From NCBI GenBank assembly GCA_900618425.1, contig UZAN01044339.1, positions 4,848 to 36,744 on the forward strand: a stretch of 31,897 bases of DNA, written 5' to 3'. Position numbers and translations under genes: made by a program. Source of the stretch: Echinostoma caproni (lineage: Eukaryota; Platyhelminthes; Trematoda; Plagiorchiida; Echinostomatidae). The notes below the pieces were generated by a model. The model saw only the letters and a program-made list of their open reading frames with translations, had not been told where the DNA came from and made no database searches. Below are positions 4,645 to 30,009 of this stretch, one piece after another; the first letter of the stretch is position 1; the number at the start of each line of letters is the position of its first letter.

Positions 4645-5179
4645 AGCTGAACCGGGTGTGAGGTGGTCTTGTGTCGAAAGGGACCAGCTGAACTGTGCCT
4701 TAAAATGTTCTGCCCAACGTTCAAGACGACATCCTGAATTTGAATCAGTGTGCCGTCAGACTCCCTAATTACCTCACTTATGCCTGCTTTCCTTGGTTCC
4801 GTACTCCTAATTAAACGAAAAAAGATTGTGACTATTACCGATAGCTGCAGCCTTCTTCATCTCTCTGCACTTCTCTACCCATCACTTCTCGCGATCATTC
4901 CTCAGACTCTTGATGAACTGGCACTTAAGGGATTTTCGCGTTTTGTCGTATTTTCAGTCCCAAGGAATTGCTCTGCGAGCGTCCAGCAGGGCACCTGAGG
5001 TTTGGGAGATCCATCGTTTTTTATCTGACCGTGCGCCAGAATTAGACGTTGTTTGTATCGACGTTTGATTGCTGACCAGTGTTATCTGAGTCCTCCAGAT
5101 GACGACTGAGCTGAGAGGCGAGCTGGTAGTTCCGCCTCGATGGCCGATTTGCAACTGTCGGTGATACTGTATTGTGAGC

Positions 5180-5594: not shown

Positions 5595-5600
5595 TTGTAC

Positions 5601-7543
5601 GGGTGTTGATTACACTAGGCGGCCGGAAACACTCTTCGCTATTCAGGCACGTTAACCCGCAATGTACACTGTACAATTTGAGATTTTGATTGAATAGAAT
5701 GATTTCAATGAGTAACTGCACTGGTCCAATGAACTACACAAAACTCGAAGCCTTCAACGGCATTCGGATAAAAAACCTTTATGTCTTCGAATATGGAATC
5801 TCCAGTTACGTAAACTGAAGCTGAATTTACCAGATTTAAACTACATTTTGTAACATCATTCTCGTGCCAACGAAGAGTTTTCCATTTTGCATGTTCGTCG
5901 AGACTGAGAATTTGCTTGCAGACGTTTCATCACCAGTCGAGTTGACATCATCAGCTCTTGTGAAGCGCTAGCGTGTCACTTGTACTCGTTCGTTCATATA
6001 AGTGCTCATCTCCACCGACTGTCTGTTTATCCTATGTCCTGGTGGATTCTATTCCGGACATGATGTAAATTCGCTTGTCACTAAGAAACCAATCAAAGAA
6101 ACTATCAATCACGAAGCAGACCACATCCAAATGAATGATATCAAATGGGGACTTAAATTAGTTATCTTATTTTAGCACATATGAATTACAATTTAAATTC
6201 AACGATGCTGTTTATCGTCAGAGGAACGACGTTTTAATGGATTTCTCGCTTGGCCGGTTCCTAGCGAATGTCCTCGTGGTAATTTTAGAGAAAAACGCCC
6301 TCACAGCGTCCATAGAAACATGCAAGTTATGAAAAAGCTATCAAGGAGAGGCTGTGTTTAATGGAAGAGGATAGTGATCGCAATTAGCAAATGGGAAGAT
6401 TCAACTGCGCGCATCGAAATATTACGTTCACTCTGGAGTAGGGAACTGAGAACCAAATCGCATTTCATGATGTTTACCTGGAAAGCCGTGGAGAGGGGTC
6501 TAACCGACACTCGGTGTTTCCAATAATTAACGCGATCGGGTCAGTGCATTCATTTTTAAAGTCCCATATCACTCAAAAGAAAGTGAAATTGAATAAATGT
6601 TTCGGATGGAGAGAGAGAGCGAACAAAATATCTGCTCGACTGCTGGAGTTCTGAACGACTTGGAATTACTGTTCTAGATTTTTTCAAATGGTTATAGGGA
6701 ACGATCTATGGCTGCACAGCAAAACGCCACCAAACCGATGGGAACATCTTTGAAGTAGCAAACGTATAGCACAGAAAGATTCGGAAATTGCGGATGACGA
6801 TACGACGAAACAAGTTACTCTAACGTTGAGAACATCGGAGAGTCAACAATCCGTGCAACGAAATTGAATTTCACATTCACCACCAGACCGTCCCTCAGTC
6901 TGCAGCGCAAAGATAAAGTTCCGGACTCCGCTATTTGTATGTGCTTCAACTCTTTCACTTGTTCTTTCGGAACAACGCACATCGGTCGCAGGATAAAAGC
7001 CTTGAATAGGAGAACTTACCTTTACCAAGTTAGATTACTTTGTTGACTTAATCAGTATTTCGTCCACAATAACAAGTTTGTGAAGAAAATTCTAAGAAGA
7101 TTAAACATCATAATCTAGCCACGGGGGAGGAGTGGGAATTTGCATTCACAAACTGGCCCTGTGTGCGTCAAAACAAGGTTTTAAGGCATGACCATAACCC
7201 ACACCACACACCGATTTCCGCTCGCGCTTTCAAACCCGGACCAAACACCACCCGGGAAATCGTGTAAACTAAGCTTATTCTTAGCTTATTCCTAGATAAC
7301 ATATCCGCCCTCCTGTATTTTGACAGAGTTAAGTTGGAATTGTTTCTTGTTTGGTATATTGTGCTGGATTCATTATGCTGGTCTTTGATTACATATAGTT
7401 ACGCTCAATTAACCACGTTGGAAGAAAGAATAGGCTTTCAAAGCCAAAAATTGGTCTTCCATGAGAGATCTCCCGAAGGCAATCAATATGGAACTACGGA
7501 GATTAAACAGAGTCTATTAACATGCACTGTTAGCTAACAGTAG
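5601..7543. other. No gene recognised
   Basis: Non-coding in appearance; stops are frequent in all frames. No triplet micro-exon pattern found on the minus strand. Confidence 0.55.
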
Positions 7544-10512: not shown

Positions 10513-10530
10513 CTCCACGACGTACGGGTT
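10513..10530 (-). CDS. Candidate 18-nt double-triplet micro-exon
   Basis: Minus strand AACCCGTACGTCGTGGAG, acceptor TCTTTTTACAG (excellent pyrimidine tract), donor GTTAGT. Phase 1 after T29 gives Gln-Pro-Val then Arg-Arg-Gly: two 9-nt units fused, with Val (GTA) where Gly is expected in the first. If real, the gene runs further left and 11322-11356 is not the end, or the two are alternative 3' ends. Confidence 0.4.
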
Positions 10531-11321: not shown

Positions 11322-11356
11322 CTATGTAATGTTACCTGGAGTCACTGCTGCTGCTG
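11322..11356 (-). CDS. Candidate terminal exon with stop codon
   Basis: Minus strand: a pyrimidine-rich acceptor (GTCCCTTTCAG) followed by a CAG repeat. In phase 1 after T29 (C) it reads PAAAVTPGNIT and then TAG. Because the acceptor sits in tandem CAGs, alternative AG choices only add or drop whole codons. AATAAA occurs on this strand at 10924-10929 and 10769-10774, which could serve as polyadenylation signals about 400 or 550 nt downstream. Competes with the 18-nt exon at 10513-10530 as the continuation of the gene. Confidence 0.35.
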
Positions 11357-14300
11357 CTGAAAGGGACATCAGTTTTAAATTAGAAAACACTTTGATCGTA
11401 CATTGAGTTCAGATTAAGTAACAGATATTGGTTGACGGCCACAAATGCATCTTATCAGATCCGATTGCTGATGTCAAATGCACCTTCTGCGTTTGATTAT
11501 TTTGAGAAACCTTGGACATGGACCACCGATAAACATAATTACCGCTGTGGAAACAGAGATGTGACTTTATGCGATCGGTGAATAGAAAAAAAGCAATTTT
11601 AACCTTTATTGCTATTGATAGTCAACCCGGTCGAAATAGGCATTCAATGCCGCGTTGCTCTCTAACTCAATTTTGTTATATAAGTAACAGGTAACAGGAA
11701 GTTTAGTACGCGATCACAGGTACATTTTACGTAATGGTATCTGTGATGTAGTGAGCGCTGTGGATTATCAAGACGCATTTTACTGGAATAGACTTACGGC
11801 CAGGTGCTGCGCGTCACGGGATGGTAAAACGAAGACTATAATTAGTTGTTTTGATTTGCAAAATCAGTGAATTGTGTTCACGTTTAGTTGTTATCAATTT
11901 GTAATTGTGATTTCAGGTTCAGTGACCAACAGCCGCATTCCTAAAGATCAACTTTGTCCACTTCTCTGAAAGAAATATGGATTTTGGCCTATTTGATATT
12001 TTCACTGTTTCCCACAAAGCGACTTCGCACATAATACAGTTTTAGTGTGTATCGGTCTCGGAATTTCAACTCCTCATGAGTGCAAATTATCATAGAACAT
12101 GTTTCACCGTAAAAATGTTCCAGAATTTAAATATGATTAGTAGTAAGTGCATCTAACGTTTTACTGATGTGAGTTGTTATGCTGAGAGGTTGTCAGACTT
12201 CGATCACTTTTTGATTCACACAGGAGTGACCGAGGGTTTGAGAGGTTACCTAATCATACCTGTGATGAATTGACATGTTATAAATAAAATGCGATTCTCC
12301 ACGAACATTTATCTGCTTTACCTTCAATCGATAGGAAAGCGTCAACGAAACAAAACAAACCGTTCTGAGAGGTGCGCGTTGACTTTTTGCTTAACCTTTA
12401 TGATTTTCGAATGTCAAAGTGAACCCGGTCAAAACGATTTTGAAATTTCTGCTACTGTGGTAAACTTACGACCAGGTGCTGCGTGGAAGCGAATTATGAA
12501 TATGAAGGTAGAATTATTGTTTTTCAGAATGTTGTTTTCGTTTTCAAAACTGGCTAATTCGTGCTGCGTTGTGCTCATTATTTGTTGGGTTTCGATTTTG
12601 CGATGAGTTGTAAAATCTATCCACTTAATTTGGCATCGTCGATTGTGATGACATAACCTGCTAAAATAGCTCGTAGGCAAATTCCAAACTCGTTACCTCT
12701 TTTGAGTAAATGTTGATTTCAGGTGCCGTGTACTGATGTAGGCATTAGTGAATCTAATGAGAATCTCGTGGTGATAGAGGAATATACTTTGATCGTTTAA
12801 ATGTATATATACACATGTGTCAGTAGTAGACTTACGACCAGGTGCTGTGTGCGAATGCGGATAGAATATTGAAGTGTGGTTAGTGTTTTTCACTACGCAG
12901 CTGTCATGCGTGATTGGGGTGAATTCGCTGCACTTCTGACACTCACGGAATCAACTTATTCCATAGAATATTTTCTACTCAAGAAATATATATATATAAC
13001 CTCTAGTGTATACATGCATATACGGGAACGTTCCCAACAGAATTCATTCTGAGACGATAATTTTTTCAACAGTAAACATTCTGGTCAGTGCAGCTGATTA
13101 TGTCTATGCTTTTTCATTGACTTTCACCAAATTCGGGTAAACTTACGACCACGGGCTATATTCATTGACAAGTAGATAATGAAGTATAAGTAACGGGGAC
13201 CATCATATGACATCAGAACAAAATAATATCTTGCAAACAATGTTCCATAGGTAATTGCAATAAAAATGAATTAGAGCGATTCATCGATTCACAACTTACG
13301 TCCAGGTTCTGAGGAGGATAAATGTTGCACGACAACAAGTTAAAACGTGTTGTTATTCAGCCGTTTGCTACTTGTTTTTGTAACATCGGTTAAAACAAAA
13401 CAGTGCAGATTAATCACGACTGAATTCCTTTTCGCGTGCCACATTTAAAATGCATTGAATCATGTGGAGTGAGAGCGCAGTTGATGATCACACGAGTTCC
13501 AACTAAAACTGCGACACAAGGCGAATTGGCCGTCATGCAAAACCAAAACTGGCCGTGGCGAACGGCAAACAGAATGGAACAGAAAACACGTCATAATTGA
13601 TGAACACGCGGTTTCAGTGCATCATAAGATGCGGATATCACAAGAGAGCGTGAATTCATTAACTCATCCTTCCTGAAATTCATTTCAGATATGGTGACTT
13701 ACCGCCACGAGCTATCAGAAATGTGGGATGATTAGTGGAACACGTTTATTTTATTGCACCATATCATTTTGAAATTTCTCAGACAAAAACTACTGCGTGT
13801 ACCATGCATTCTACACGCGTTTATGTTTGAGATGATTAAGAATTGTTTGGTCATTTTCATCAATGAATCAAACTAATTTGTAATAAGATAGTGATCAATA
13901 TGAAACTTACGTCCAGGTTCTGGAAACAAACGAAGCAAAGAGACATATGACGTAAACGTTTATGTATCCATTGTGTAAACAGGCGATTAGCGTTTTATGC
14001 GTGAGGGAATTTTTACACAGTATTGGTAAAAGCTTCGAAGAGGAAAAACGACATCCTCAAATGGATCTCGTTCACACTGCGCTACTGGTCGTTCACAGAA
14101 AAGTTATGCTCACATGAACGATCACAAACATATTCGAATGCCAAAAACAGAGAGAGAGAGGTGCACACGGTCGGAACGAAACATCGACGGGTTACAGAAC
14201 TGCACTGAGGAACTATCCGCTTGATGAACGATTATTTTGCAATGTTGTGCACTGAGTGGTTTAACCTCATAGTCAAGGGATCCTATGGTTTTATTCCGCG

Positions 14301-17300
14301 AGCTACGAAAACTGTATGCGTATTTCTTAAGCGTCTGAAACGAGAAGAGTCGCCCAAAATATAGCAGAATAATGATCTTTCTAAGTAAAGGGAAATTTCC
14401 GTGATTTATCTCTGGGTGATACATCGCTAGGAGCCTATACAAAAGCAGGTGAATTTTCCTGGTCATTTCACATTCGGATACGTTGGCTAGCCAACGTCTG
14501 ACTCTAAGGGCAGCGGGGTAGTGTGCCAAAACGGTTGGGAGAACCAATGTCTGCGAATTACAAGGGCAGAGACACTAGGCACCAGCCTAACCGAAGAATT
14601 TGAGACATATTCACAGTTTGAATCATAATGCATCCAATGATCATTGTAGTTTTATTATCCCACTCTACTTGAACCTGCATAGAGGCAGAAAGCTAATTTT
14701 CGTACAACTTGCCTTGAGAATGGTTACCCAAGTTAAAGAAAACGTCGGCGAATATAATTCTCTGCCGAAACTGTTCTTTTATTCTCATTAAAATATTCAC
14801 ATATATTTCGTATAAACCAAACTATGCTTCAAATATTTGAAATTCTTTGTTCGTTTAGATCTCTGATTGAGATAAAAGGAGTTCAACAACCCGCTTGTTG
14901 TTAGACAAAAGATGCAATTGGAATATGTTAACCGTTCCACAAATAGTTTTGAGCCGATTGTGGTATAACGCTGCTTGCATTTCATTTTAAGCACGCAGTT
15001 AAATCCTGAATGGGAATATATTACAATGAATTAGGGACTTGATATACCTGCTACAAAACGTAGTATGGAAAAGGTCAATCAAATTTCTGAATCTCGTTTT
15101 CGAAAAATAAATGTTGATATGGAACTCACCTCCGTCAACTGGAAGTAAACAATTACGGTAAGCAATTTGAACAACAGTGGACTGTTTTCGACGAAGTTTG
15201 ACTGGAAATATTTCCAGAGTTTAAATAACAACTTTTGTGATCATATCAGAAGTGTTGAACATTTCAGTTTTTAAAAAATATGTTCTTTGAGATAGATTCA
15301 TTGATTATAGTGGCTGGGATAAGAGTTTTCAAAACACGAAACGTCATATTGTTGACGAGTGGATTACTTGACACAAATTCTATCTAGCAGAAAGTTCAAC
15401 TCACGTCCTGGAACTAAATTATTATGGAAAACGGAAGTAAATTATTCGAGTAAAAACCCTGGTTCTTTTGCATACCAACGAAATTTGAAAAATACCTCAA
15501 TACGGAAAACCTTTCTTTGGGTAAGCAATTTGGCCAATAATGACTGCGTCCAATTTGTCGCGGATAGAATTGCTAGTTACTAGGGAGGATCTACCGTTTC
15601 ATAGAAATCAATGAAAGATATTTCGGGCACCTGAAAATTCACCCTTGGGTTCAAAAAGCTTCTTTTGATGTCACTTCACCAGACCAAATGACAAAATACT
15701 GATTTCAGTGTGTCGATTAGGCCTCTCAGCAAGATATGCGAAACAAAACAGCCCGTTTGTTTACAACAATACCAATCCTCACTCCATGTGCAAATGAACT
15801 TCGAACCGCTGTCTGACGAGTCATATGTCCTCTACTAAATACAAACTGCATGCACTGCATCTAACTTAACAACTATATAGCTGCATATATGGATCGAGGN
15901 NNNNNNNNNNNNNNNNNNNNNNNNNNNNNNNNNNNNNNNNNNNNNNNNNNNNNNNNNNNNNNNNNNNNNNNNNNNNNNNNNNNNNNNNNNNNNNNNNNNN
16001 NNNNNNNNNNNNNNNNNNNNNNNNNNNNNNNNNNNNNNNNNNNNNNNNNNNNNNNNNNNNNNNNNNNNNNNNNNNNNNNNNNNNNNNNNNNNNNNNNNNN
16101 NNNNNNNNNNNNNNNNNNNNNNNNNNNNNNNNNNNNNNNNNNNNNNNNNNNNNNNNNNNNNNNNNNNNNNNNNNNNNNNNNNNNNNNNNNNNNNNNNNNN
16201 NNNNNNNNNNNNNNNNNNNNNNNNNNNNNNNNNNNNNNNNNNNNNNNNNNNNNNNNNNNNNNNNNNNNNNNNNNNNNNNNNNNNNNNNNNNNNNNNNNNN
16301 NNNNNNNNNNNNNNNNNNNNNNNNNNNNNNNNNNNNNNNNNNNNNNNNNNNNNNNNNNNNNNNNNNNNNNNNNNNNNNNNNNNNNNNNNNNNNNNNNNNN
16401 NNNNNNNNNNNNNNNNNNNNNNNNNAGAAACTAATGCCTATCCGCTACCAAATGAATTTATTCACGATCCAATTTTCAGTGACGTGCAAATCATTGTGCT
16501 CTATACGTTAAGTAGACAGGGAGGCCTCTGGTGAAAATCATTGCGTCCGAGATATAATTCTGGCCCACATACATCGAGGGCAGGGTCTGCTACAATAATT
16601 TGAAAGCACCGTGTGCAAGGATGTATACTTGTTATCCAAACCAAGATACCCTTCTCCACACGATAAGCACAACAAGTACATTATTTTACCCTCGCTTTCA
16701 ATCTAAATGCGAATTTGTTGCTAATGTCCATTGCTCTGTATATATAAATTTAAATCCGGGGTGCAGTTAGAAAATAGATGTGTGCCCATTAATTTATTTT
16801 GAAGAAAGAATGCTTGCTATAAGAACTGAACCAACTGCCAAATGAATACAAGACCAGCTTTGATGAAATATCAGGTAAACGACATATACTATGAGATCAT
16901 TGATAACTAGTATTCAATTATTCCTTATTCAATACTGTTCAGTGTTGCCAAAAAAACACTGGTTTACGTGATAGGCAATATCATTTTACCGATACCCTTG
17001 TGTGAGGAGGTTGCACGGAAATCTTTACCCGTCAACCAAAAAGCTACGCAGGTATCTATGATACTTCAACTTTTGAGCGCGTTATTTCTAGTAATACAAG
17101 TCCAAACGATTTGTGATCAGTTTAGTTAAACCAGAGCTTATTTTACAATGGGAACACGAGCAACGAAATTAATTTCCGGTTATTTACAGTTGTTTGTGTA
17201 AAACCTGACGTAACGATTTTGATGCAGTAAACATGTTACAATAACGGAAGCACTCACCTCCCACAACTGAAAAAACGTAATTGATAACCATGAGTGTTAT

Positions 17301-20300
17301 TCAGATTAGAACATATGTTTTCAGCTGAATGGAAGAACTATGGTGTGCAGTATTCCTGCGATTGACAAGGTTGATATCTTCACTATACAAACGCTGACAT
17401 ATTGAAGCGAAGGGAGGGTGGACTCATTTCTACCATCATAAAATTTTAGAAAGAAGGACTTGTTCACTTTTCAACGTCGACTGAAACCGGGCAGAGTTTT
17501 ATTGTATTAGGAAGAACACACAAAACTTCGGTCCCCAATTTCATTCTGGTTTTCTAGTAAATTGACCTTAGTCCCACATATGTGCCGAATAAATTCATGG
17601 AATTTAGCGCGCAATAGACCCCAAACGTGAAAACGAAATCGGTTCCCTGTCATCACGTTCCATTTCAACCTAAGATAATGAAGTCGGAGTTTCCGAGGTA
17701 TATGCTCGGAATTGAAATCTGAGGCAGCCACGAGGTCAGAAATAGGCAGCTGTTTACCAGAAATATGCATTACACGGAAATGATGTCTTTCTCTTCTTAT
17801 GTCCCTCATGAAATACATACAATCGGGAGCGCAACGGTCAACGATTTAGAACAACCATATAGGGAAAATCTGCAGTCTATTTTTCCTCCGACTTTTACGA
17901 ATGACACACAACACAATTGCATTGAGTAGACAAGCACCAGTTTTGCTCAAATCAGGGTGCACATTTTAGTGATCGGATCAAGAGGAAAGGATGTTTTGAA
18001 AATTCCTTATCTAGCGGGATTAAACAGGAATGCAATGAACAAATGTTTCCAGTACATCATTCGTCTTCAATCATATTACGCGTATGACTTACTTCCTTGC
18101 ACTGGAATGATACCACGGATTTCGTTATTTCAATTCGTTTCAAAAACCGAATCATCATTTTGGGATGTATGGGATTTTTGCAAAACAGGAACTCATGTTA
18201 CTTACGACCAGTATCTGTATTTGTTCAATTTTTAAGAGAAGGAAATAGGGGAATCCTCAATAGGAAGTTGGTATGTCGGTATATGTATACCATAATTCAG
18301 CGATTTGGACTTGGTATCTGTTGATGTTTATGGAATTGCAATTGCTGCCAGCAGACCTACTCATTCAGGTGTTTGTTATACACGCACATTATAGGATAAT
18401 TTTATTGCACAAAGAAAAGAAAGTAACACTCACCGCCTTTTACTGCAATGAATCATTTTACAGTGAACATATTGATTGGTTATTTTGCTCATTGCACATA
18501 GTAATGGACGTGAACCCATGACTGGTACCAGTCAATGAAATTATTTATGTGACATGATACCGCAGTTGGCAGACTCGGATGTTGTATGATATATGATTCT
18601 TCGTTATTGTATGCAACCTGCAATCTTAACTACAAGTGACTTACTGCCAGGTGCTGAATTTCAAAGCAGATTGTGGCTTTTGGTTACGGGCGAACATGTA
18701 ATTGAATACAATGGAATGAAGCAAGATGAGCTACTTAAACGACCTTCAATGAGAATATGGAATAGTGATCTAAAGATTAAGTTTTCCGGTTATTTGAAAT
18801 TTCGAATGGAAATCCGTCGTGTTTATAGCAAATGAAGCGTAAACTTGAAAGCTAAGAAGCACTGAACATCGGTGTCCACCTGTTTTGGTTTCATCAGCAA
18901 TGTGCTACGATCTTCCGTCACAATGCTAGTCACATGAGATATTTTCTATTTTTAGAACACTTCTCCTTCAAATCTGGTGTAAAATTATCAAATGTACAAG
19001 TCAATATCAGGAATGGGGTTGCGGTCTTACAAAGACTGTCTAGCAAAATACAGGAATCGGAGGGATGGCCAACGATTGATCGCATCGAACCCGGGATTTA
19101 CTGATCAACCTGGTCCACGTTCTTAGCGTCCGATCATCAACTGTTGCACAGACAACACCGAACGCTTTGTGGCTAAAGGCTGATAAAACTGTCACTTGCT
19201 AGTTAATTATTCAACGAAATTTCAACTAGGTGTGCAGTGTTTGGTAAATATTTTCTTACGCTACAAGCAACTTGATAGTGTAGGTTTCCCTAATAAAACG
19301 AAACTTACGTCCGGGATCTGTAATGAACAAGTTCAGATGACATTGAAACAGCGCTTCTCAATCAATCCACTATTATTTATTCAATTCAAAACATTGATAT
19401 GCGTTAGTAAAGTGACACAAGGCTGAAGGTAAATGCAACTGCAAGTGGGGTCACATATTTGATGTATTAGGGGATTGTTCAGTTAAAAAATAACAGATGG
19501 ATTTATCTGATTGACTTACTGCCTCTCTCTGAAAATATTGCATACAAAATAGAAAAANTTCTTTCTTCAACAAACACATTTAACACATGCCGTGAACATC
19601 GCGGCATATACGTGAAATTCTATTCAATGATGTCAAATGTTGTCCTGTATGTGTTTTCAAGAAATTAAAACTAACCTCCCTGAACTGCAAGAAAATGTAG
19701 GACGAGAAGAATTCTAAGTCACGATTGCATCTCCTGAACCAGGTTTCCTGAGAACTGATTGTGTGTATGGGTAAACCTCCTTAATTATTCGCGAAACATT
19801 ATTGGTTTATGCGAGACTTACATCCGGGTACTGACGGATTAAAAGCATGAGATAGTCGAGATAGGCCTGATAAGTCACCGTATCGGGAAGAAATATCAAG
19901 TGTTGATTATTTACATATTATACATAGATTGCTGTAACCCAAACACCAGGAATGAAAACAGCCAGCACGTCCATGTTGTAGTTAGGTTTTATTTCTAATT
20001 TATCATTTCAGCGCTGTTGCACAAGCATTTCTTGGTTTCTGACTAACCATTTTCTCGGTATTCAATCGAGCGTTCAGTCACAATGTTTGTTTGCAAGTTT
20101 GTCTTGGCTGCAGTAATTTATCGTCCGTTAAGTCCTGCCTCGGTTGTTTGAAAATGCAGTATTCGAACACTTTCAATGTTGCATGCACTTTTAAGTTGTT
20201 GCCTTAAGTGAGTATTGCAGACCAAATTCTGTTATCTTGATGGTGGTGATTTGCACTCGGTGAACAGACAACCAATGCGAAATGTATGCTAATAATTAGT

Positions 20301-23300
20301 TGTTCGTGGTCGGCAATCACGGTTTCTATAAATATTTTGGCAACGAAATAAATTATCAGAATACTCACGTCCAGGGGCTGATTTGCAATAGAAATTGGAA
20401 CATTGTGAATGTGCGGTGAGCTCATTTAATAAAACAGGGCAATTATGGGTTGCATGGCATTCGTTGCAAAATAACAATTGCGAGGAGACAAACGGATAAT
20501 CAGGTGGATTGCAATTTCGATTTATTTTCGTGGTTCGTTATTTGTGTGCCAGTATGGAGGAATGCTTTACAGAAATAACAAACTTGTAACTCGGGCGCAA
20601 ATATTCATTGACAAACTGAAATGGTGTCAACATGTAATTTGGTTTCTGGCATCTTTTTATCGTACTATTGGATCGTCCAACTTTAAATATCTATCTGGAA
20701 GACGAAAAGCGTGTAAAATAATCATTTCAACAAATTCCTTTTGCATGCAGGAAATTGACACTACTACTAGCAGTTTATCCAATATTTTTCCTACGCGTGA
20801 GCTGAACCTCAGTACAGTGTGCTGGCAGGCGAATACGGAGGCTGTGAATCAGGTAACTGATTGATTCAAATTTCAACAAGACACTCATTTGTGGAATAAT
20901 TATTTTGTACTCCGTATGCCTCCAAACATTTAGGCAATTTTGCGGATGAAAAGCGAAAATTTATTCTCCTGGTTTAAACACCATGAAGGGAACAATTGTT
21001 TATTGNTAACAAACTTGTAACTCGGGCGCAAATATTCATTGACAAACTGAAATGGTGTCAACATGTAATTTGGTTTCTGGCATCTTTTTATCGTACTATT
21101 GGATCGTCCAACTTTAAATATCTATCTGGAAGACGAAAAGCGTGTAAAATAATCATTTCAACAAATTCCTTTTGCATGCAGGAAATTGACACTACTACTA
21201 GCAGTTTATCCAATATTTTTCCTACGCGTGAGCTGAACCTCAGTACAGTGTGCTGGCAGGCGAATACGGAGGCTGTGAATCAGGTAACTGATTGATTCAA
21301 ATTTCAACAAGACACTCATTTGTGGAATAATTATTTTGTACTCCGTATGCCTCCAAACATTTAGGCAATTTTGCGGATGAAAAGCGAAAATTTATTCTCC
21401 TGGTTTAAACACCATGAAGGGAACAATTGTTTATTGAACAAAGCTTACGACCGGGTACTGTAATGAGACAAGAAAAGTACTGAGTAAATATTGATCTTTA
21501 TCCCCAAATTGTATGCAATCATAATGTATGTTGTCATCCAATTACTACTTGCCATATTTATTATAAATCATTGAATTATAAATTATAAATTATTACAAAT
21601 TGTGAGGTATAACCGATTTCCTGTTTGGCATTGAGAGTGTTACTTAATCCAATGAGAAATATCTGTTGGGCAAAACAAGTTCGCTGCCAATGTGCAAATT
21701 TCATGCTTGTGATAGTCGATAGCAATAGCTCATGAAAATCTTCACTCGGACCGGCATGCTGAACAGAGCATCAGTTGACCAAGATGAATGACTGCAACAC
21801 ATGGCGGATCGCAAACGGGAATATGAGCAATCGCGTAACATTCGGTGTTCGCGCTGTTTGAATCGGAGTTCAATATAATTTCGCAAATAAAATGTATACC
21901 AGTGGTAGCAACAACAACAGAAAATACATGTCACGAGATGATAACATTTGGTGTAATGTTCTCAATCGCTGACGTAAAAGAAACATGCACATTTATAACC
22001 CATTGTGTTTGTAAATCGTAGTGAATCGAGAACTACGGTTAGGCGACGCCCAGAAAATCTGGCAATATCTTTACAGTGAATGTATTCGATAGATGTGTAA
22101 TTCCTTTTCAGCAAAATTGCGCTCCATGTAACAGTTGATTTCTTATGTGATTATACTCCTTCAGTTATTTTCCATGTCCATCCGCTCTCGAATATTTCGG
22201 AGAACTGCTGTTTCATGTACCGAAAACATTCGTTCTGAATTCAAATACAAACAGATTGATTGCGTAGCGTTGGACAGTTCGTTAGGTCCTATGGTACCTG
22301 ATGTATGTTTAGGAATCATTGAACTAAACTGGGTCAATAATATATCACAGACCATCTTGTGAGAACGCTATGTGGATGATTTTTTTATTATTACTAAGCG
22401 TGAACATTTTGAATTCGTTTTGAAACTATTGCACTCTGTTCATCCACATCTTTCCGTAGTACATGGAGAAGAAACCAAAGATTGTTTAGGGTTTCTGTAG
22501 GTAAGAATAACGACCTGCTTTGATGGTAAAACGCTGTGCCGTCGGTCACCATCTGAACGATATGCGCAACTGTTAAAATCAGCTCTCAACCACACCGTCC
22601 CGGCTCCTCGAATTTGACGAATTAACTCTATTCATGGAATCGATTTGGAAAACATGTGCGTAGTTGGCAATCCAGTTAAGTCTCACACACTGTGTGCGAG
22701 ATCAGCTTCAGTGGCGGTGACGCATATATAGGCAGAACCAACGGTCAATTATCACAACGAAGGACCGGACACATTCCAAAGTGGTTGGTGAACTCGATGA
22801 CATATTCAACGCACATTAATCGGGCGGGGTGGTGGTGGCCAAGTCGGCAAGTCATCAAACTGTAACCCGGAAGTCGCGAGTTCGAACCGCTTCCCCACCG
22901 CCCATCTCCCCACACCTGTATTATCTCCAGGCAGCCGTTGTAAGGCCACAGCTTCCTTCCTGAAAGTTGACTGTACATTTGCATATTTCATAAATAGAAA
23001 CAGGAAGTAAAAAGACATTTTACATTTACATTTAAACCCGGAGTCATCAACTGCAAAACACGTCATGAAACATAATCGATCCAGATCCCTCTTTCAAGCC
23101 GTTGCTACTCAACTACAATGCAAAACTGTTGGCAATAAGTGATTGCATAATCCTATTATATGCGCCCAACAGTTGTTGATCACATCAGTTCACTTGTCGT
23201 GGAGTTGATCTGTGTTTTTGATTCAAATAGTCTCTGTCTAACTGTCATTGTCCGTTCACAAGGGTTTACAAATCCAACGAGCTACAAATGTGCTTGTTTG

Positions 23301-26300
23301 TTTTTCGTCAGCAATTGAGAAGAGCACACGAAATTATAGCATCTGGTGACATATGTCTTCGTTCGGCCTTGATACGGTGTATAAGGACGAGCCATTGTTT
23401 TATCTATACAAATGGGCTACTCTAAGCAATGAGCAACTTACGTCCACTTTCTGGGTATTCAACAAAAAAGAAAATTAATTAAGTTTAACTCAGCGGTTGC
23501 AATTTGCTGGCTGATTTACGAAAAGCACGTTGACAACATCTCTCTTCCAAACTGCATTTACTTGAGGATGAACAAAACTATCTTATCTTATCTTGCCGTA
23601 CCGTAACCCTTTTTGGGTAATTGATAAACAAAGTAAAATAACTCTGATTCCATGAAGGTGAGAACCGACGCACCTTCGGTTGCACAAAGGCTGCAACAAT
23701 TTTGTATCATTCAAGCACATTTCTGGTACGTTATGTCATTAGGCGTAACGCTTACCACCAGGTGCTTTGATGAATGAAAAATGAGAGATTCCATAAATTT
23801 TATATTTCCAAAGTCAGAAACGTTATCTTGTCACATTTGATGAGCACTCGAAAAGTTATATGATCAATTGAGAGTAGCTCAGTGAAACGTGGAGTGCTTC
23901 ATTGGAGACACTATCTCGCAAAATATTATCTTTATATATCAGAGAACATCATTGATTGGAACGCATATTTGAGTCATAGGACTTGAACGCCATTGTCAAC
24001 TTACTTCCACGAGCTGGAAGGGTTTGTGTGGAAAACCGAACATCAGTTTTGAACATTTTGCCGGGGAATGTAGTGATAGAATGAATAGAAAGAACTTGTG
24101 GAACTAGAGATATTTCAGTAATTTCCCTGTTGCTCACATAGGAAAGCCCATCTGGGTTTGACATGAGATTGCAACGCGGAGTCAGTGCCAATAAACACAC
24201 ATCCACGAGGTATACTCTATCTTGTTGATTCAAAAGCAACCAGTCTGATACGACCTTGGCGTCAAATGTTTCATATTATGATTCTGTATGGCAATATTTC
24301 TTTTCTAACGGGAAACAGATTGAGTATGTTTCATGACAGCGCTATTCAATGCAGTGGTTAGTTCATTTTACTGCTGTGTTCCTTCATTTCTGTGGTTACG
24401 CCTATTCATACATACATATGCATATCTTTATTCTGTAATCTACATTATCACATATTCACTGATTGTTTCGTTTACTTACTTCCTCTTCCTGGAAAGAAAA
24501 TGTTGCACGATATGTAGGAATGTATGTAGGAAATAATACTCATAGATGTTTGGTGGTCTTGATAATTAGTATGCGATCTTCAACTGCGGGTTCTCATTCC
24601 GATTTGTAGCATCAAATAGGTTTCTCCGCGGATAGCATCAACGCAGATTTTCACGAGCGTTTAAATTCTACTAAACACAAGCTCTATCTGAGAAGATGCA
24701 CTTACTTCCACGAGCTAAATTGCAAACAGAAAGGAAACATGTCAGCCACTTTTGACATTTGAGAATTTGTACAAATGAATTAGTACAATATGATCAATTT
24801 TCTGAATTTTCATTTCAAAATGGTCGGTCTTCATTGAACACCTGTTCATCCGCTCTATTCATGATTGACCTGCATATGATTGCTGTTGTGCTATATTCCT
24901 GTAATTGCTTCAGAATGGCCAAAAATATCACGGTATAACAACGTGTATGAAGAAGAAAGCAAGATTGATGCACTGCTCGAGGGCGGGATACTAATAGGTC
25001 CTCCTGGTCAAAGCAGGCGAATTGTTTTGGGACAATTCACAACCGGTTCCTTCTCATTACGAAAGCCTGACCCGCAAGGCAGCGGTGCGATGTTCCAAAC
25101 CGCAATACATTGGGGACTTCGTCATACGATAAGGTTCCGAAAACACCTGTACAGATAATTGAGTTGATGATCACTCCTACAAGCCGAAGGGTGTTGGGTG
25201 TGGTTTTTGTACGCATGTTCTCGGATGGTTTAAAAATCAGGCGGTGTAAACAACCACACCGGAGAAATCCAAACCGGCCCTATTGAGACTTCTGCAGGCC
25301 ATTGGAAAAACGTTGCATGCGTTTGAATTAACCAAGCTTATTTCGAAGTGCCAAAACGGAAATTATTCGCAGCGATTTTCAACTGGTCTCACTAAAATGA
25401 TCGTTTTATTGTCACATCCGTGGTTTTCTTAGTTTCAGTCATTCAGTTATTCATAAAGTGGCATGGGGTAGCATGTTAAATACAAGTAATTGCAATTAAT
25501 TTCACGTGGCTAAACGTATTGCCAATCAAGAACAATATATCCTTCCCCACACTCCTATAATGTTATGGAATAGAACAAAATCAATGTACACAAAATTGTG
25601 GTTCAGTTTGCTTGCATGCATGCAGGTGAGCCAGTACAGCCCAAAACTCAAGCGCCACTCGAAAACGAACTAGATTGGTACAGCAACGGTCAGTGAAATT
25701 TTCTACTTACGGCCAGGTGCTGAACGAGTGATGAAAACAAGAAAAAGACCAGCATTTTCAGATGCAATACACCAAATGCACAGCAGGCATCAACCCCATG
25801 CTGAGTACAATGAAAGCCCGTGGTCACATCATAGAGCCCATACTGGATGAACTGTTTGAAAATAATTCTCGAACCTCACAAATTGAAACGGATAATATGG
25901 AAAGTGAGGAAACACTTGTCGATGTTTGTACGTCTGAAAACGGGTCTTGATCATGTCACTTTTTGAAGAAGTCATAGCCGTCGCATTGCAACACCGATAA
26001 CAGGTAAACAAAACTCAGATCAAAGAGCGGTAATTGTTGGAAGTGTACGCCCCTGAAATGGATTGGCGGACTTAATTCTGTGAACACAAGTTACAGTTTC
26101 CATTAGTGAAATACAGATCAACAACCAACAGACAGTCCGATACGGGTAAGGTCAATAGCGAGACCGCTTAGTCACGTGACAACTGATGCTTGCGAATTGT
26201 GGCATGATTTCAGATTACATCACAGAAATGCGAGAGCGTTGTAAGCAGTTACGTTCCCTTCCGCTTTTGCTCCAAAAAATCAGTAGTATCTATCACAAAA

Positions 26301-29300
26301 ATACGTTTGTGGGAAAATGCCAGGGGGATAACTTACGGCCGGGTTCTAATCCGCACATGGATCAGAAACGGGATAGGGGAATGGATCAGCCAAAAAACCG
26401 TGGATTGCATTACTCGAAATGAATTCATACAGCTCATTAATAGAATCAGCGACTAACGCTACCTGTGGTTGGAATCCTTTGTTGGTTTTCAATAAGTATG
26501 AAAGCTCTAAGCCGAAAGCGTCACTTTGTCATGATAAGAATTGAAATGAGTGCATAGTCAGAACTCAATTCTCGAAATGTTATTGAACCATTGAATTATT
26601 TACCATGTATTTTGTCCACAGTCATACTCTGGGCTCAATAATGAATATCCGTCTTGTCAGCAAGTCTGGACCTGTTTATCGCTGGGACATTGATGTTCTG
26701 GTTTACTGAGGAACTCCGGTGTAACTGGTGTACTGGTAGAGGCCCAAGCTGCAGTTGTTAGGTTACACAAGATCACTGGTATACAATTTTGCTTATATCG
26801 TACATCCCAATAATTCCAGTTGTGCTCTGAGTTACTTCGCGTGTGTTATGGACTATTTCACTTTGTGCCCATTCTAAAAAAAGACAAATGACTGATATGT
26901 ATGTTTCTCATTCGTTAAAAAAGGCATCCTGATGTTCATACTATAAAACTGTTCCTTGAATGTGTCGTATCGAATGTTATATTTTATCAACAAACGCGAA
27001 GATGGTTATACAGATAAGTAATGTAACTTACGACCTTGTGCTGAACGGTTTGAGTAGACAGAAGGCAAAGTGGTAGCTCAGATTTTTCATCAAATGAGCA
27101 CTCTTGAACCGGTCTTAAGATAGCCTTGTTTATAACAGACCGTAGCACTATGATTTGTACTGTGCAAAGTAATTTAAGGTGAATGAGAAGTGAGCACGTC
27201 TTCAGAATATAAAGCGGAGGTATTCTTATATCCCCAAGCAGGTTGGCAGTTGACGACGATTTTTCAGAACCCAAGCGATTGTCAGTGTTGTAGTTTCAGC
27301 AGTCCGAAGTGAACAGCGCTTTATATGATTTCGGGTGAAATGGCAATTGTTCATCTGATTATGTTCACCGTATGTTGATTCGTCAACGAATATCTAACCG
27401 ATATATGCGCATGAATTCGAAAATCAACGAGGGTTTTCTTCTATCACGCAACTCGATGACAGAACTTGGACCTCTTAAATGAGTTCAACACCAAGTTGCA
27501 ATTGCATGCACACAAGGAACTCATCTGCACAGGTTGCCATTGGCGACTCAGATCGATTATCTTCGTTTGAGGTTCGTTTATTACGCAATAAATATGCAAA
27601 GTTCGTAATTCTAGTGGCATCCACGAGTCAAAAAATACGTCATTCTCCGGAATTTCTCAATGCATCAAAGTGCACTGTGAGTCACTGCGTCGGTTCTTCT
27701 CTGGTAATCCATAGAGATGAGCGTCTCGCCAAATACAGTCGTCCTGACTAAATAACAATTTGATTCACACGCGAAAATGCTTTTCTAATTTGCGTAGTGG
27801 TGCACGGTTTTCAAATCAATGAAGCAAAAATGACGCTGGCACACATTATTACCGTCACTACTACTAGTAATACTATTTAAAATAAATCATATTGCATTTT
27901 GATGGAAATGTGTAGTCATGCAAATCCCTAAGTGCACTAATCCAGTCACATTCGTTATCCAAAATGAACTTACAGCCAGAGTCTTGAAGGTGTGTACAAA
28001 ATAACACATGCATTGATTTTCACCATCACATAAAGTGCAACACTGATCGCTTCAAACAACCTCACTCCATGAGATATTAACGCTCACAGAAAATGTGTCC
28101 CAATAAGCCACTTTTCACGCGCCTCACATTCAATATCATTGTGCAGGTATCTATTAAATAGTTGTGTGTATGTTACAAACTGAGAGTAAACAACGTTTCT
28201 GTGGTGCCAATTCGTCCGCACCTCCCTAAAATGTTACCAATTGTTCTCGGGTTTGCCACAGACGTCTTAGGTATGGCAGGTTTCCAGTTAAAGTTTACAC
28301 CTTCTGGTTGCTTAGCCTTGAACTAAACCTCTGGTTTGGTTTTATCTTTCCTCTCAAGAAACAACTTCACGAAATATATGTTTAAACATTTTTTGCTCGA
28401 TTAAAACTGACCTAGCGTTTCAAACGTTTTGCCATAAAATTACCTGAAACGTTTTCCGGGGAATTTGTGGCCGGATTGATTGATTGATGCAATGACGTAT
28501 GCTGCTTGAGGTCACATACATCATGGATTAGACCCATGGCAATATCAATCAACTCCCGCTTATAAGATGTAGGTAAATAATTCGTTCGCTGATTCATTTG
28601 TCGACTGTTACTAAGGCTGTTTGACTGCTACAGAAATGGTGTCACTTGACCGCTATTCAACGGGGTGAAGGCATACATTCATTTTGATCAAAGATACTTT
28701 GTCAGTGAAAATGTGGGGCCAATAGAGACTAAAGAGGAGATTTCCATTTCTTTTCAAATTGCAGTTCACTCACCACATGACCCTAAAATAGAATGCCAAT
28801 AACGCATATATCCATGAATGAGCATTGAAGGGAACATACGTGCAGCAATGAAACTTCCAATAATACTCTCGCATTACGCACACTAGAATGTGTAGTGCAT
28901 CATTCACGCCACAACCAGGCAGCTTTGTACTTGTGCGTATTCTACACGATGGACAGTGAATTGCGCTCCCCGTTTCCCATGCCCGACACAGACCGAACAA
29001 TGACTAATGTTCGAGGTTGTTCAGAACCGTATGTTTTCATCTCTGTTTCATAAATCCAGACGGAATATTTCAATGACAAAAGATGTTCGGTTGATTCTTG
29101 GAATACATCACACTTCATGTTGCTGGAAATTCTGCATCCTGCGAGAAACAAACTCAATTTTCCCACTGTCTCACGCTGTCTGGGACTCTCTTTTCCACGC
29201 ACTAATGAAAAGGCACCGGCTTGACGTTTGTCAAGATGGCTTTTCCTCAGTATCTATTATCAACGTGATTCATCGGTTGACCATTCAGAAACTGTTGTTA

Positions 29301-30009
29301 CATTTTGACCATCAAAACGTAATACATCTGCAATATATCGAATTCCGGATTGTGTATCAAGACCAATACTTACACCAATCGTCACCTGAATTATACAAAA
29401 TGGGAACAAATAGAAGGGTTCATGAAGCATGCTCTATCTAGCCTCAATCATGTATGAAGACAGCAGAATATTGCAATACAAACTGTCTTATACAAACACG
29501 AATTGAATCATTGCCGCTGCACACTATACCTCGTGCCAATTAACTAAGGATTATAAAATGAACGATGAACAATAAACTTCACTCTCCAGCTACTAGTGAT
29601 CCAGCAATGAACATGATTTACTACTTTCACTCGTGTAGTTGGTTTCACAAGAATGAATTTATTTCATCAAGGTGGGTCCAGTTTATTGCAACGTCGATCA
29701 TTGGATCGTGAAATGATCACCTCTGGGGCGCCTCCAAAAACAGCAACCAAGAGCGACGCATAGAAGAGCATGCTGATAGTTGTTCAAACTGAACCGACAC
29801 TAGGTTCAGGGATGAATCACACATCATTTTGACATAGGAATAACCACAGTACCATCAACGAAGATACACCTACACCAAATGCTAATGGAACAGATTAAAA
29901 TGGTCTCTCCCGCCACGTGGTTAAAAGCGGAATCACGTGGAGACTCACATTGTACGAAGCATGAGAACAAAACGAGCCAGGTCACCGCGCTCAGTATGTA
30001 CGAGCTCAT
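11322..30009 (-). CDS. Secreted collagen-like gene built of 9-nt one-triplet micro-exons
   Basis: Seen: a signal-peptide exon (29949-30009) followed by 29 exons of exactly 9 nt, each between an AG acceptor (22 CAG, 5 TAG, 2 AAG) and a consensus donor. All are in phase 1, so the splice falls after base 1 of the X codon, and every exon ends with an intact GGN codon plus one base. Joined in order they give an uninterrupted (X-Y-Gly)29 with no stops, Pro at 14 of 29 Y and 9 of 29 X positions. Known: Gly-X-Y repeats form the collagen triple helix, and flatworm micro-exon genes (MEGs) combine a signal-peptide exon with tiny symmetrical exons. Inferred: a secreted short-chain collagen-like protein. 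Introns run from about 104 to 1984 nt, so the triplet coding (261 nt) is under 2 percent of the span. The left boundary is uncertain (11322 or beyond 10513), and triplets may be missing in the assembly gap. Each exon is listed separately below. Confidence 0.85.
11798..11806 (-). CDS. Triplet micro-exon T29 (Pro-Pro-Gly)
   Basis: Minus strand CACCTGGCC, acceptor CAG, donor GTAAGT. Last strict triplet exon. With T27 and T28 it forms a (Pro-Pro-Gly)3 block at the C-terminal end of the helix. Confidence 0.85.
12470..12478 (-). CDS. Triplet micro-exon T28 (Pro-Pro-Gly)
   Basis: Minus strand CACCTGGTC, acceptor CAG, donor GTAAGT. C from T27 makes CCA. Confidence 0.88.
12836..12844 (-). CDS. Triplet micro-exon T27 (Pro-Pro-Gly)
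   Basis: Minus strand CACCTGGTC, acceptor CAG, donor GTAAGT. Identical to T28, and the flanking intron sequence on the acceptor side is also similar, suggesting tandem duplication. Confidence 0.88.
13147..13155 (-). CDS. Triplet micro-exon T26 (Pro-Arg-Gly)
   Basis: Minus strand CCCGTGGTC, acceptor TAG, donor GTAAGT. C from T25 makes CCC, then CGT, GGT. Confidence 0.85.
13300..13308 (-). CDS. Triplet micro-exon T25 (Glu-Pro-Gly)
   Basis: Minus strand AACCTGGAC, acceptor CAG, donor GTAAGT. G from T24 makes GAA (Glu), then CCT, GGA. Confidence 0.85.
13703..13711 (-). CDS. Triplet micro-exon T24 (Pro-Arg-Gly)
   Basis: Minus strand CTCGTGGCG, acceptor TAG, donor GTAAGT. C from T23 makes CCT (Pro), then CGT, GGC, with G carried on. 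Confidence 0.85.
13911..13919 (-). CDS. Triplet micro-exon T23 (Glu-Pro-Gly)
   Basis: Minus strand AACCTGGAC, acceptor CAG, donor GTAAGT. G from T22 makes GAA (Glu). Same exon sequence as T25, including donor and the CAG. Confidence 0.85.
15130..15138 (-). CDS. Triplet micro-exon T22 (Leu-Asp-Gly)
   Basis: Minus strand TTGACGGAG, acceptor CAG, donor GTGAGT. C from T21 makes CTT (Leu), then GAC, GGA. Read in phase 2 this exon would contain a TGA stop. Confidence 0.8.
15405..15413 (-). CDS. Triplet micro-exon T21 (X-Pro-Gly)
   Basis: Minus strand TTCCAGGAC, acceptor TAG, donor GTGAGT. If no exon is hidden in the N gap, G from T20 makes GTT (Val). The X residue depends on that assumption. Confidence 0.8.
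15900..16425. other. Assembly gap (526 N)
   Basis: A run of 526 Ns lies in the intron between T20 and T21. One or more 9-nt exons could be hidden here; the triplet frame would be kept either way. Confidence 0.99.
17258..17266 (-). CDS. Triplet micro-exon T20 (Ile-Val-Gly)
   Basis: Minus strand TTGTGGGAG, acceptor CAG, donor GTGAGT. A from T19 makes ATT (Ile), then GTG, GGA. Last triplet before the assembly gap. Confidence 0.8.
18093..18101 (-). CDS. Triplet micro-exon T19 (Leu-Gln-Gly)
   Basis: Minus strand TGCAAGGAA, acceptor CAG, donor GTAAGT. C from T18 makes CTG (Leu), then CAA, GGA. The 104-nt intron between T18 and T19 is the shortest seen. Confidence 0.85.
18206..18214 (-). CDS. Triplet micro-exon T18 (Asp-Thr-Gly)
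   Basis: Minus strand ATACTGGTC, acceptor CAG, donor GTAAGT. G from T17 makes GAT (Asp), then ACT, GGT. Confidence 0.85.
18434..18442 (-). CDS. Triplet micro-exon T17 (Ile-Lys-Gly)
   Basis: Minus strand TAAAAGGCG, acceptor CAG, donor GTGAGT. A from T16 makes ATA (Ile), then AAA, GGC. Read in phase 0 this exon starts with a stop codon, so phase 1 is required. Confidence 0.85.
18645..18653 (-). CDS. Triplet micro-exon T16 (Pro-Pro-Gly)
   Basis: Minus strand CACCTGGCA, acceptor CAG, donor GTAAGT. C from T15 makes CCA (Pro), then CCT, GGC, with A carried on. Confidence 0.85.
19309..19317 (-). CDS. Triplet micro-exon T15 (Asn-Pro-Gly)
   Basis: Minus strand ATCCCGGAC, acceptor CAG, donor GTAAGT. 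A from T14 makes AAT (Asn), then CCC, GGA. Confidence 0.85.
19520..19528 (-). CDS. Triplet micro-exon T14 (Glu-Arg-Gly)
   Basis: Minus strand AGAGAGGCA, acceptor CAG, donor GTAAGT. G from T13 makes GAG (Glu), then AGA, GGC. Confidence 0.85.
19676..19684 (-). CDS. Triplet micro-exon T13 (Phe-Gln-Gly)
   Basis: Minus strand TTCAGGGAG, acceptor CAG, donor GTTAGT (the only such donor among the 29). T from T12 makes TTT (Phe), then CAG, GGA. Confidence 0.8.
19822..19830 (-). CDS. Triplet micro-exon T12 (Leu-Pro-Gly)
   Basis: Minus strand TACCCGGAT, acceptor CAG, donor GTAAGT. C from T11 makes CTA (Leu). T is carried on and becomes TTT (Phe) with T13. Confidence 0.85.
20369..20377 (-). CDS. Triplet micro-exon T11 (Pro-Pro-Gly)
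   Basis: Minus strand CCCCTGGAC, acceptor CAG, donor GTGAGT. C from T10 makes CCC, then CCT, GGA. Confidence 0.85.
20576..21436. repeat. 430-bp direct duplication around a single N
   Basis: 20576-21005 and 21007-21436 appear identical by eye, and a single N at 21006 separates them. Perfect identity joined by one N points to an assembly join in which overlapping contig ends were not merged, rather than a biological tandem repeat. The T10-T11 intron is then about 431 nt shorter than it looks. No triplet exon lies inside the block. Confidence 0.9.
21449..21457 (-). CDS. Triplet micro-exon T10 (Leu-Pro-Gly)
   Basis: Minus strand TACCCGGTC, acceptor CAG, donor GTAAGC. C from T9 makes CTA (Leu), then CCC, GGT. 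It lies 13 bp outside the 430-bp duplicated block, so it is not itself duplicated. Confidence 0.85.
22135..22620 (+). pseudogene. Penelope-like retroelement RT remnant
   Basis: One frame reads through an RT-like stretch: FKYKQIDCVALDSSLGPMV (compare the RQ-GVAMGSPLGP motif of Penelope-like elements; here the Gly and Met are changed), then ELNW, a TGA stop at 22360-22362, then ERYVDDFFII with the YVDD catalytic core intact at 22369-22380, then LLHSVHPHL and CLGFL before a TAG at 22498-22500. The HPH segment and the final GFL block match the usual order in Penelope-like RTs. In-frame stops and motif changes make it dead. It lies in the T9-T10 intron, antisense to the host gene. Family call is from motif memory; an LTR-type RT is less likely. 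Confidence 0.6.
22822..22985 (+). mobile_element. tRNA-related SINE
   Basis: An A-box-like TGGCCAAGTCGG (22836-22847) and a B-box-like GAGTTCGAACC (22878-22888) are spaced as in tRNA genes. GTGGTGG (22829-22835) can pair with CCACCGC (22895-22901) as an acceptor-like stem, but the T-stem is mismatched, so this is not a functional tRNA. A non-tRNA body follows. The 3' end is estimated. It sits beside the Penelope-like remnant in the same intron. Confidence 0.55.
23442..23450 (-). CDS. Triplet micro-exon T9 (Glu-Ser-Gly)
   Basis: Minus strand AAAGTGGAC, acceptor CAG, donor GTAAGT. G from T8 makes GAA (Glu), then AGT, GGA. The following intron (1984 nt) is the longest and holds a Penelope-like remnant and a SINE. 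Confidence 0.85.
23756..23764 (-). CDS. Triplet micro-exon T8 (Thr-Pro-Gly)
   Basis: Minus strand CACCTGGTG, acceptor AAG, donor GTAAGC. A from T7 makes ACA (Thr), then CCT, GGT, with G carried on. Confidence 0.8.
24005..24013 (-). CDS. Triplet micro-exon T7 (Thr-Arg-Gly)
   Basis: Minus strand CTCGTGGAA, acceptor CAG, donor GTAAGT. A from T6 makes ACT (Thr), then CGT, GGA. Confidence 0.85.
24480..24488 (-). CDS. Triplet micro-exon T6 (Arg-Arg-Gly)
   Basis: Minus strand GAAGAGGAA, acceptor CAG, donor GTAAGT. A from T5 makes AGA (Arg), then AGA, GGA. The only triplet with Arg at X. Confidence 0.8.
24706..24714 (-). CDS. Triplet micro-exon T5 (Pro-Arg-Gly)
   Basis: Minus strand CTCGTGGAA, acceptor TAG after a good pyrimidine tract, donor GTAAGT. 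C from T4 makes CCT (Pro). A is carried on. Same exon sequence as T7. Confidence 0.85.
25041..25049 (-). CDS. Possible extra triplet micro-exon between T4 and T5
   Basis: Minus strand GAACCGGTT, acceptor AAG with a weak upstream pyrimidine tract, donor GTGAAT (weaker than the others). In phase it would give Arg-Thr-Gly and change T5 from Pro-Arg-Gly to Ser-Arg-Gly. It fits the Gly position and phase, but a loose pattern of this kind is expected a few times by chance in 17 kb. Confidence 0.3.
25711..25719 (-). CDS. Triplet micro-exon T4 (Pro-Pro-Gly)
   Basis: Minus strand CACCTGGCC, acceptor CAG with a pyrimidine stretch, donor GTAAGT. Identical in sequence to T29, about 14 kb away. C from T3 makes CCA (Pro). 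Confidence 0.85.
26337..26345 (-). CDS. Triplet micro-exon T3 (Gln-Pro-Gly)
   Basis: Minus strand AACCCGGCC, acceptor TAG, donor GTAAGT. C from T2 makes CAA (Gln), then CCC, GGC, with C carried on. Confidence 0.85.
27032..27040 (-). CDS. Triplet micro-exon T2 (Ser-Gln-Gly)
   Basis: Minus strand CACAAGGTC, acceptor CAG, donor GTAAGT. T from T1 makes TCA (Ser), then CAA, GGT, with C carried on. Confidence 0.8.
27974..27982 (-). CDS. Triplet micro-exon T1 (Asp-Ser-Gly)
   Basis: Minus strand ACTCTGGCT, acceptor AAG, donor GTAAGT. Phase 1: codon completed by G from the candidate exon upstream (GAC), then TCT, GGC, and T carried on. First exon with Gly in the collagen position. Confidence 0.7.
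28774..28782 (-). CDS. Candidate exon 3: 9-nt micro-exon, Cys in place of Gly
   Basis: Minus strand GGTCATGTG with acceptor ..CTATTTTAG and donor GTGAGT. In phase 1 after the 12-nt exon it reads Trp-Ser-Cys plus G. The third codon is TGT, not GGN, so it is either the last N-terminal exon before the triple helix or a Gly-to-Cys change. Its final G completes GAC (Asp) with the next exon. Confidence 0.45.
29374..29385 (-). CDS. Candidate exon 2: 12-nt micro-exon
   Basis: Minus strand GTGACGATTGGT, acceptor ..ATAATTCAG before it and donor GTAAGT after it. In phase 1 after exon 1 (T) it reads Cys-Asp-Asp-Trp plus one base (T). It is the only GTAAGT or GTGAGT donor with a nearby AG that I found between exon 1 and 28782. 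It carries no Gly codon in this phase, so it would be a non-collagenous N-terminal piece. Confidence 0.5.
29949..30009 (-). CDS. Exon 1: signal peptide, ends in phase 1
   Basis: The ATG (30007-30009) opens MSSYILSAVTWLVLFSCFVQ, a textbook signal peptide: short polar N-region, hydrophobic core AVTWLVLFSCFV, then a polar residue. After 20 codons plus one base (T) comes GTGAGT, a strong donor. The exon therefore ends in phase 1, exactly the phase all downstream triplet exons need. The base at -3 of the ATG is a purine (G). The frame stays open past the donor to 29824, but that stretch is better read as intron. Start choice: first ATG below the TATA box in this frame. What is inferred is that this exon belongs to the collagen-like gene; phase, strand and order agree, but no transcript was available. 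Confidence 0.65.

Follow-up and report, generated by a model that had tools for sequence, protein, structure and literature searches.

How finely can the coding sequence of a collagen helix be divided among exons? The question is raised by a locus of the trematode Echinostoma caproni (contig UZAN01044339.1 of assembly GCA_900618425.1, positions 4,848 to 36,744 of the forward strand), a stretch of 31,897 nucleotides (nt) that was analyzed whole and is called the window here; positions are counted within it. The original prediction, made from the letters of this DNA, read a series of minus-strand nine-mers as a collagen triple helix encoded one Gly-X-Y triplet per exon. The array is real as sequence and is very probably a gene, and we consider it very likely that its 29 nine-base segments are micro-exons of one predicted gene, whose product would be a short and likely secreted collagen.

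All 29 segments were found at the positions first proposed for them, from 27982 (first start) to 11798 (last end) on the minus strand, and each is flanked by AG at its 5' side. A consensus donor, GTRAG(T/C), follows 28 of the 29, and GTTAGT follows the nine-mer at 19684; the introns between them measure 104-1984 nt, which confirms the spacing described at the outset. Across the whole window, AG-N9-GTRAGT has 27 minus-strand occurrences versus one on the plus strand, and no other spacing of AG-Nx-GTRAGT between 3 and 60 nt exceeds six per strand. Within 28500-11500 the minus strand has 28 occurrences of the in-register pattern and the plus strand none; in 300 dinucleotide-preserving shuffles of that interval the average was 0.017 and no shuffle exceeded 1. 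A splice-site profile, trained on 28 of the 9-nt exons, gave 8 bits or more to 32 minus-strand nine-mers (29 in register) versus one on the plus strand (0 in register); the three minus-strand nine-mers out of register lie at 28782, taken as exon 3, and at 19039 and 7158, both unused. Leave-one-out scores of the 29 ranged from 5.4 to 20.7 bits and were at least 10.1 bits in 28 of them. Among intronic splicing motifs near the exons, enrichment of GCATG and TGCATG was not clear, and CTAAT was counted seven times upstream and six times downstream versus about 1.4 expected, a figure uncorrected for the many motifs inspected.

The joined segments read as collagen. GG occupies bases 6-7 in every one of the 29 nine-mers, the Gly codon being bases 6-8, and the third base of this codon varies (GGA in 14, GGC in 8, GGT in 7) whereas the first two are invariant. 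The frame is free of stops at all junctions and runs D-S-G S-Q-G Q-P-G P-P-G P-R-G to E-P-G P-R-G P-P-G P-P-G P-P-G. PF01391 (Pfam Collagen) scored 65.7 bits on the joined prediction against a cut-off of 27.2, with an unbroken Gly-X-Y series; the query for this and for the homologue searches, 164 residues long, was built with the alternative 3' end described below (21-nt, 18-nt and 10417 terminal exons), its helix and N-terminus being identical under both 3'-end models. In a search with the joined protein, 889 proteins matched among 7970 scored candidates; all 120 matches listed of the 889 carry a Collagen domain, and the 11 inspected were varied collagens and collagen-like proteins. Residues are also placed as in collagens, with Glu, Leu, Phe and Ile at X only and six of the seven Arg plus the sole Lys at Y. 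When X and Y labels were swapped at random, 3 of 20000 swaps fitted as well. Because an intron splits each X codon, exon order could be tested too, and 89 of 20000 shuffled orders were as good as the genomic order. X/Y frequencies for both tests were taken from 3210 triplets of proteins fetched by similarity to the query. The claim of an unbroken X-Y-Gly series with collagen-type preferences and no junction stop is borne out by these results.

The idea that the exon equals the structural triplet holds for its length of 9 nt and fails for its edges. Intron phase is constant at 1, every intron interrupting the X codon behind its first base. An exon therefore has the length of a triplet but is shifted against it: it contains the last two bases of X, the whole of Y, the whole Gly codon and base 1 of the following X. 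Positions are collected in the table.

Table. Predicted features of the collagen micro-exon locus, 5' to 3' on the minus strand; the rows of collagen micro-exons 1-29 rest on scans for AG, 9-nt spacing and donor and on the splice-site profile.
Feature	Sequence or reading	Position	Strand	Remarks
TATA box	TATAAA	30056..30061	-	first T 52 nt from ATG; putative promoter
Predicted exon 1	MSSYILSAVTWLVLFSCFVQ + first base of next codon	29949..30009	-	signal-peptide-like; donor GTGAGT, phase 1
Predicted 12-nt exon 2	GTGACGATTGGT (C-D-D-W)	29374..29385	-	phase 1-1; acceptor 6.8, donor 9.7 bits
Predicted 9-nt exon 3, without Gly	GGTCATGTG (W-S-C)	28774..28782	-	phase 1-1; acceptor 5.0, donor 8.7 bits
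Collagen micro-exon 1	ACTCTGGCT	27974..27982	-	
Collagen micro-exon 2	CACAAGGTC	27032..27040	-	
Collagen micro-exon 3	AACCCGGCC	26337..26345	-	lowest splice score of 29
Collagen micro-exon 4	CACCTGGCC	25711..25719	-	
Collagen micro-exon 5	CTCGTGGAA	24706..24714	-	
Collagen micro-exon 6	GAAGAGGAA	24480..24488	-	
Collagen micro-exon 7	CTCGTGGAA	24005..24013	-	
Collagen micro-exon 8	CACCTGGTG	23756..23764	-	donor GTAAGC
Collagen micro-exon 9	AAAGTGGAC	23442..23450	-	
Collagen micro-exon 10	TACCCGGTC	21449..21457	-	donor GTAAGC
Collagen micro-exon 11	CCCCTGGAC	20369..20377	-	
Collagen micro-exon 12	TACCCGGAT	19822..19830	-	
Collagen micro-exon 13	TTCAGGGAG	19676..19684	-	donor GTTAGT; TAG arises if omitted
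Collagen micro-exon 14	AGAGAGGCA	19520..19528	-	
Collagen micro-exon 15	ATCCCGGAC	19309..19317	-	
Collagen micro-exon 16	CACCTGGCA	18645..18653	-	
Collagen micro-exon 17	TAAAAGGCG	18434..18442	-	
Collagen micro-exon 18	ATACTGGTC	18206..18214	-	
Collagen micro-exon 19	TGCAAGGAA	18093..18101	-	
Collagen micro-exon 20	TTGTGGGAG	17258..17266	-	
Collagen micro-exon 21	TTCCAGGAC	15405..15413	-	
Collagen micro-exon 22	TTGACGGAG	15130..15138	-	
Collagen micro-exon 23	AACCTGGAC	13911..13919	-	
Collagen micro-exon 24	CTCGTGGCG	13703..13711	-	
Collagen micro-exon 25	AACCTGGAC	13300..13308	-	
Collagen micro-exon 26	CCCGTGGTC	13147..13155	-	
Collagen micro-exon 27	CACCTGGTC	12836..12844	-	
Collagen micro-exon 28	CACCTGGTC	12470..12478	-	
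Collagen micro-exon 29	CACCTGGCC	11798..11806	-	
Preferred terminal coding segment, tentative	PAAAVTPGNIT-stop	11322..11356	-	CAG-repeat acceptor, 8.0 bits; AATAAA at 10929
Alternative 18-nt exon	AACCCGTACGTCGTGGAG (E-P-V-R-R-G)	10513..10530	-	phase 1-1; acceptor 5.9, donor 7.4 bits
Alternative terminal exon, tentative	4-Cys tail to TGA	10305..10417	-	acceptor 7.1 bits

The gene had been placed between 27982 and 11798; this interval holds the helix exons, and the start likely lies upstream of it, at 30009. Eleven readings in the window (nine minus, two plus) open with an ATG and reach a phase-1 GTRAGT donor after 41-121 nt, and that of exon 1 is the most hydrophobic (2.37 versus 1.82 for the next), from which exon 1 is predicted to be signal-peptide-like. 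Predicted exons 2 and 3 would carry the frame on to the helix, giving CDDWWSC and then DSG. The 12-nt exon 2 belongs to seven short candidates listed for this strand whose length differs from 9 nt, and on its own it is weakly supported, since pairs of strong sites at such lengths are similarly common on the plus strand.

At the 3' end, the best acceptor within 11797-6900 is that at 11356, and the terminal exon opening there is tentatively ranked above the alternative. In the latter, the segment at 11356 would be a 21-nt internal exon with a poor donor (-0.3 bits), followed by the exons at 10530 and 10417-10305. The 11356 acceptor sits in a CAG repeat (11341-11358, minus), so the choice among several acceptors at 3-base steps could lengthen or shorten the product by single alanines. 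The 18-nt candidate offers two more triplets, with Val (GTA) in the first Gly slot. No Pfam family was detected in the three minus-strand frames of 11797-5801, and a COLFI C-propeptide was not found there, although a domain split by introns or lying further downstream could escape such a search.

Altogether, the predicted gene may work as follows. Transcription would start just below the TATA box, and about 33 exons would be spliced to give a secreted, trimerising chain of roughly 125 residues, in which the signal peptide and the CDDWWSC segment precede the helix. A collagen helix rises by about 0.29 nm per residue; its 29 triplets, the final three being PPG, would form a rod of roughly 25 nm closed by a short tail, and the cysteines N-terminal to the helix could bond three chains. 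Rod length could change stepwise through exon skipping: because the exons are all one triplet long and of one phase, the loss of one would remove a single triplet from the rod without disturbing the Gly register. Of 406 possible forward joins between exons, 397 leave the frame open, and the nine stops all follow two exons ending in T. Skipping any single one of the 27 internal exons creates a stop in two cases, 27040 and 19684; micro-exon 13, the only one whose donor departs from GTRAG, is thus required, since the frame without it meets TAG.

Several points weigh against this interpretation. For the 3' end, two models compete. The splice-site profile was derived from the very exons that it scores, with the leave-one-out scores and the plus-strand scan as controls, and strong sites paired at lengths other than 9 nt, within 3-90 nt, showed no clear strand excess (51 minus versus 47 plus). 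A further exon may hide among the 526 N in the intron between 17266 and 15413. The swap and order tests are partly circular, because the proteins that supplied their X/Y frequencies had been fetched by similarity. An orthologue was not found, none of the 120 matches listed of the 889 being shown to share the ends of the query, and residues 1-40 of the joined protein drew no candidates in a protein search. Lastly, the flanks of the 29 exons bear no trace of the exon duplication proposed for their origin.

That origin is most likely repeated duplication of a 9-nt exon together with its flanking intron, because random intron gain would not strike the same triplet base each time; duplication of such a unit explains the constant junction base without any target-site rule. 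When 150 nt beside each of the 29 exons were compared by BLAST on the same strand (E <=0.01), 15 pairs were obtained, of which 13 were overlapping neighboring flanks and two were one 14-base match. Recent duplication of the flanks is rejected, all 15 pairs being accounted for in this way. The strongest rival holds that the long exons of an ordinary collagen were broken up when introns were later inserted at a favored position of each triplet, and this can be considered possible, although on balance improbable. The dissimilar flanks, in which duplication is not visible, and the 25 distinct 9-mers among the 29 exons favor it, and a repeat protein presents the same target base pattern in every triplet. 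In contrast, all junctions fall at one triplet base, and no proto-splice motif is shared at the exon edges, where the last base is C in 15 exons, A in six, G in six and T in two, and the first is C in 12, A in eight, T in eight and G in one.

It is unlikely that the segments, although real exons, belong to a longer collagen with other domains outside the window or in unrecognised exons. The unsettled 3' end and the 526 N in one intron leave room for this, as do the two extra triplets at 10530, one with Gly replaced by Val; the lack of Pfam domains in the three minus-strand frames of 11797-5801 and a terminal reading with a stop and an AATAAA just downstream speak against it. A decaying pseudogene that retained old exons and lost splicing is highly improbable: one GTTAGT donor and one weak acceptor might be signs of decay, but the Gly codons, AG and GT are kept in 29 of 29, no stop is present, and the signal-peptide-like exon and TATA box are intact. 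Chance, or a repeated non-coding motif resembling AG-N9-GTAAGT, has in its favor merely the general possibility of such patterns in a 32-kb window and is rejected as next to impossible by the shuffle (28 versus a mean of 0.017), strand (27 versus 1) and spacing counts, by the unrelated flanks and by Gly codons that vary at the third base but not at the first two.

Schistosome and tapeworm micro-exon genes (MEGs) have in common with the predicted gene a long run of tiny symmetric exons and a flatworm genome; a signal peptide, another trait of MEGs, is predicted here from hydropathy. MEGs are defined as having at least seven exons, at least half of them micro-exons (<70 nt, divisible by 3), with a run of at least four (PMC7653826); with 31 micro-exons among 33 predicted exons, the predicted gene falls within this definition. 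Known MEGs mix exon lengths of 6-36 base pairs (bp), with about 80% of the coding region in such symmetric exons (PMC5825161). In contrast to these mixed lengths, 30 of the 31 predicted micro-exons here are 9 nt long and 29 encode collagen helix; with the preferred, tentative 3' end, the micro-exon share of a coding length of about 380 nt would be 0.746, slightly below the share given for MEGs. Schistosoma VAL-6, which lies outside the MEG families, has a MEG-like run of very small symmetric exons that resembles that of the predicted gene, but it is not a collagen (PMC4350168). The word collagen does not occur in the main texts of PMC7653826, PMC4350168 and PMC5825161. By structure, the best reading of the predicted gene is one of MEG type. 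Of the two options offered at first, a relic or fragmented collagen and a new MEG class, the second is supported as the better, by the signal-peptide-like exon and the composition of the exon table; a decaying relic is disfavored, because Gly codons and splice AG and GT are intact throughout.

Cnidarian minicollagens are short secreted collagens with few triplets and terminal cysteines, as in the predicted gene; we know of no micro-exon structure in them. Fibrillar collagen genes share with the predicted gene the Gly-X-Y helix and exons whose lengths are divisible by 9. In types I and III, the helix is encoded by exons of 45, 54, 99, 108 or 162 bp, and the unit starts with an intact Gly codon (PMC2852846), whereas the predicted exons are 9 nt long with phase 1 inside X, and all 29 depart from the 45/54-bp rule. 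By its predicted exons, the gene is not a fibrillar collagen. In the available part of PMC4450265, 9-bp exons appear in a single place, a figure that sketches how collagens might hypothetically have grown. The accessible portions of the open-licence literature yielded no account of a collagen whose exons each encode a single triplet, which is weak evidence of novelty. It would be the most finely split collagen gene known to us.

Elsewhere in the window, a reverse-transcriptase relic at 4743-4099 (minus) gave 17 protein matches at E <=1e-10 (82 candidates), and the 11 of the 17 with an organism name are all from flukes (Fasciola, Schistosoma, Opisthorchis, Paragonimus and Echinostoma; 50-69% identity), which makes a digenean setting of the locus most likely. 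Remains of a retroelement of the long interspersed nuclear element type extend over 3252-5733 (minus), one piece scoring 26.7 bits with RVT_1, just below the cut-off of 29.6, and another matching the fluke reverse transcriptases. Within the intron between 23450 and 21457, a stop-interrupted, reverse-transcriptase-like stretch at 22102-22600 (plus) carries a YVDD motif. A 431-bp tandem duplication (99% matches) occupies 20576-21442, in the intron just after exon 21457, with a single N at its join (21006); the duplication may be real or an assembly seam. The run of 526 N covers 15900-16425 in the intron 17266-15413, which is 1844 nt long. Two stretches near 22888 and 9880 (minus), GGTTCGAACTC and TTTCGAACTCG, resemble the B box of transfer RNA (tRNA) genes and are perhaps remains of short interspersed elements; ARAGORN reported no tRNA in the window, and Rfam gave no match at gathering score.

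If the interpretation is true, the gene brings together two phenomena, the tiny exons of MEGs and the nine-base periodicity of collagen exon lengths, in the extreme case in which exon length equals the structural repeat. It would be a living test case for the growth of collagen genes, by unit duplication or intron gain, and another for the spliceosome, which would have to join about 30 serial 9-nt exons across introns of up to 2 kb. A doubtful but conceivable extension is a class of fluke genes in which the exon is the structural repeat, the collagen having grown by amplification of a 9-nt exon unit and exon skipping adjusting the rod in single-triplet steps, so that one locus would yield a family of collagens. 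More such genes may exist in flukes, because gene finders and read aligners easily miss exons so small.

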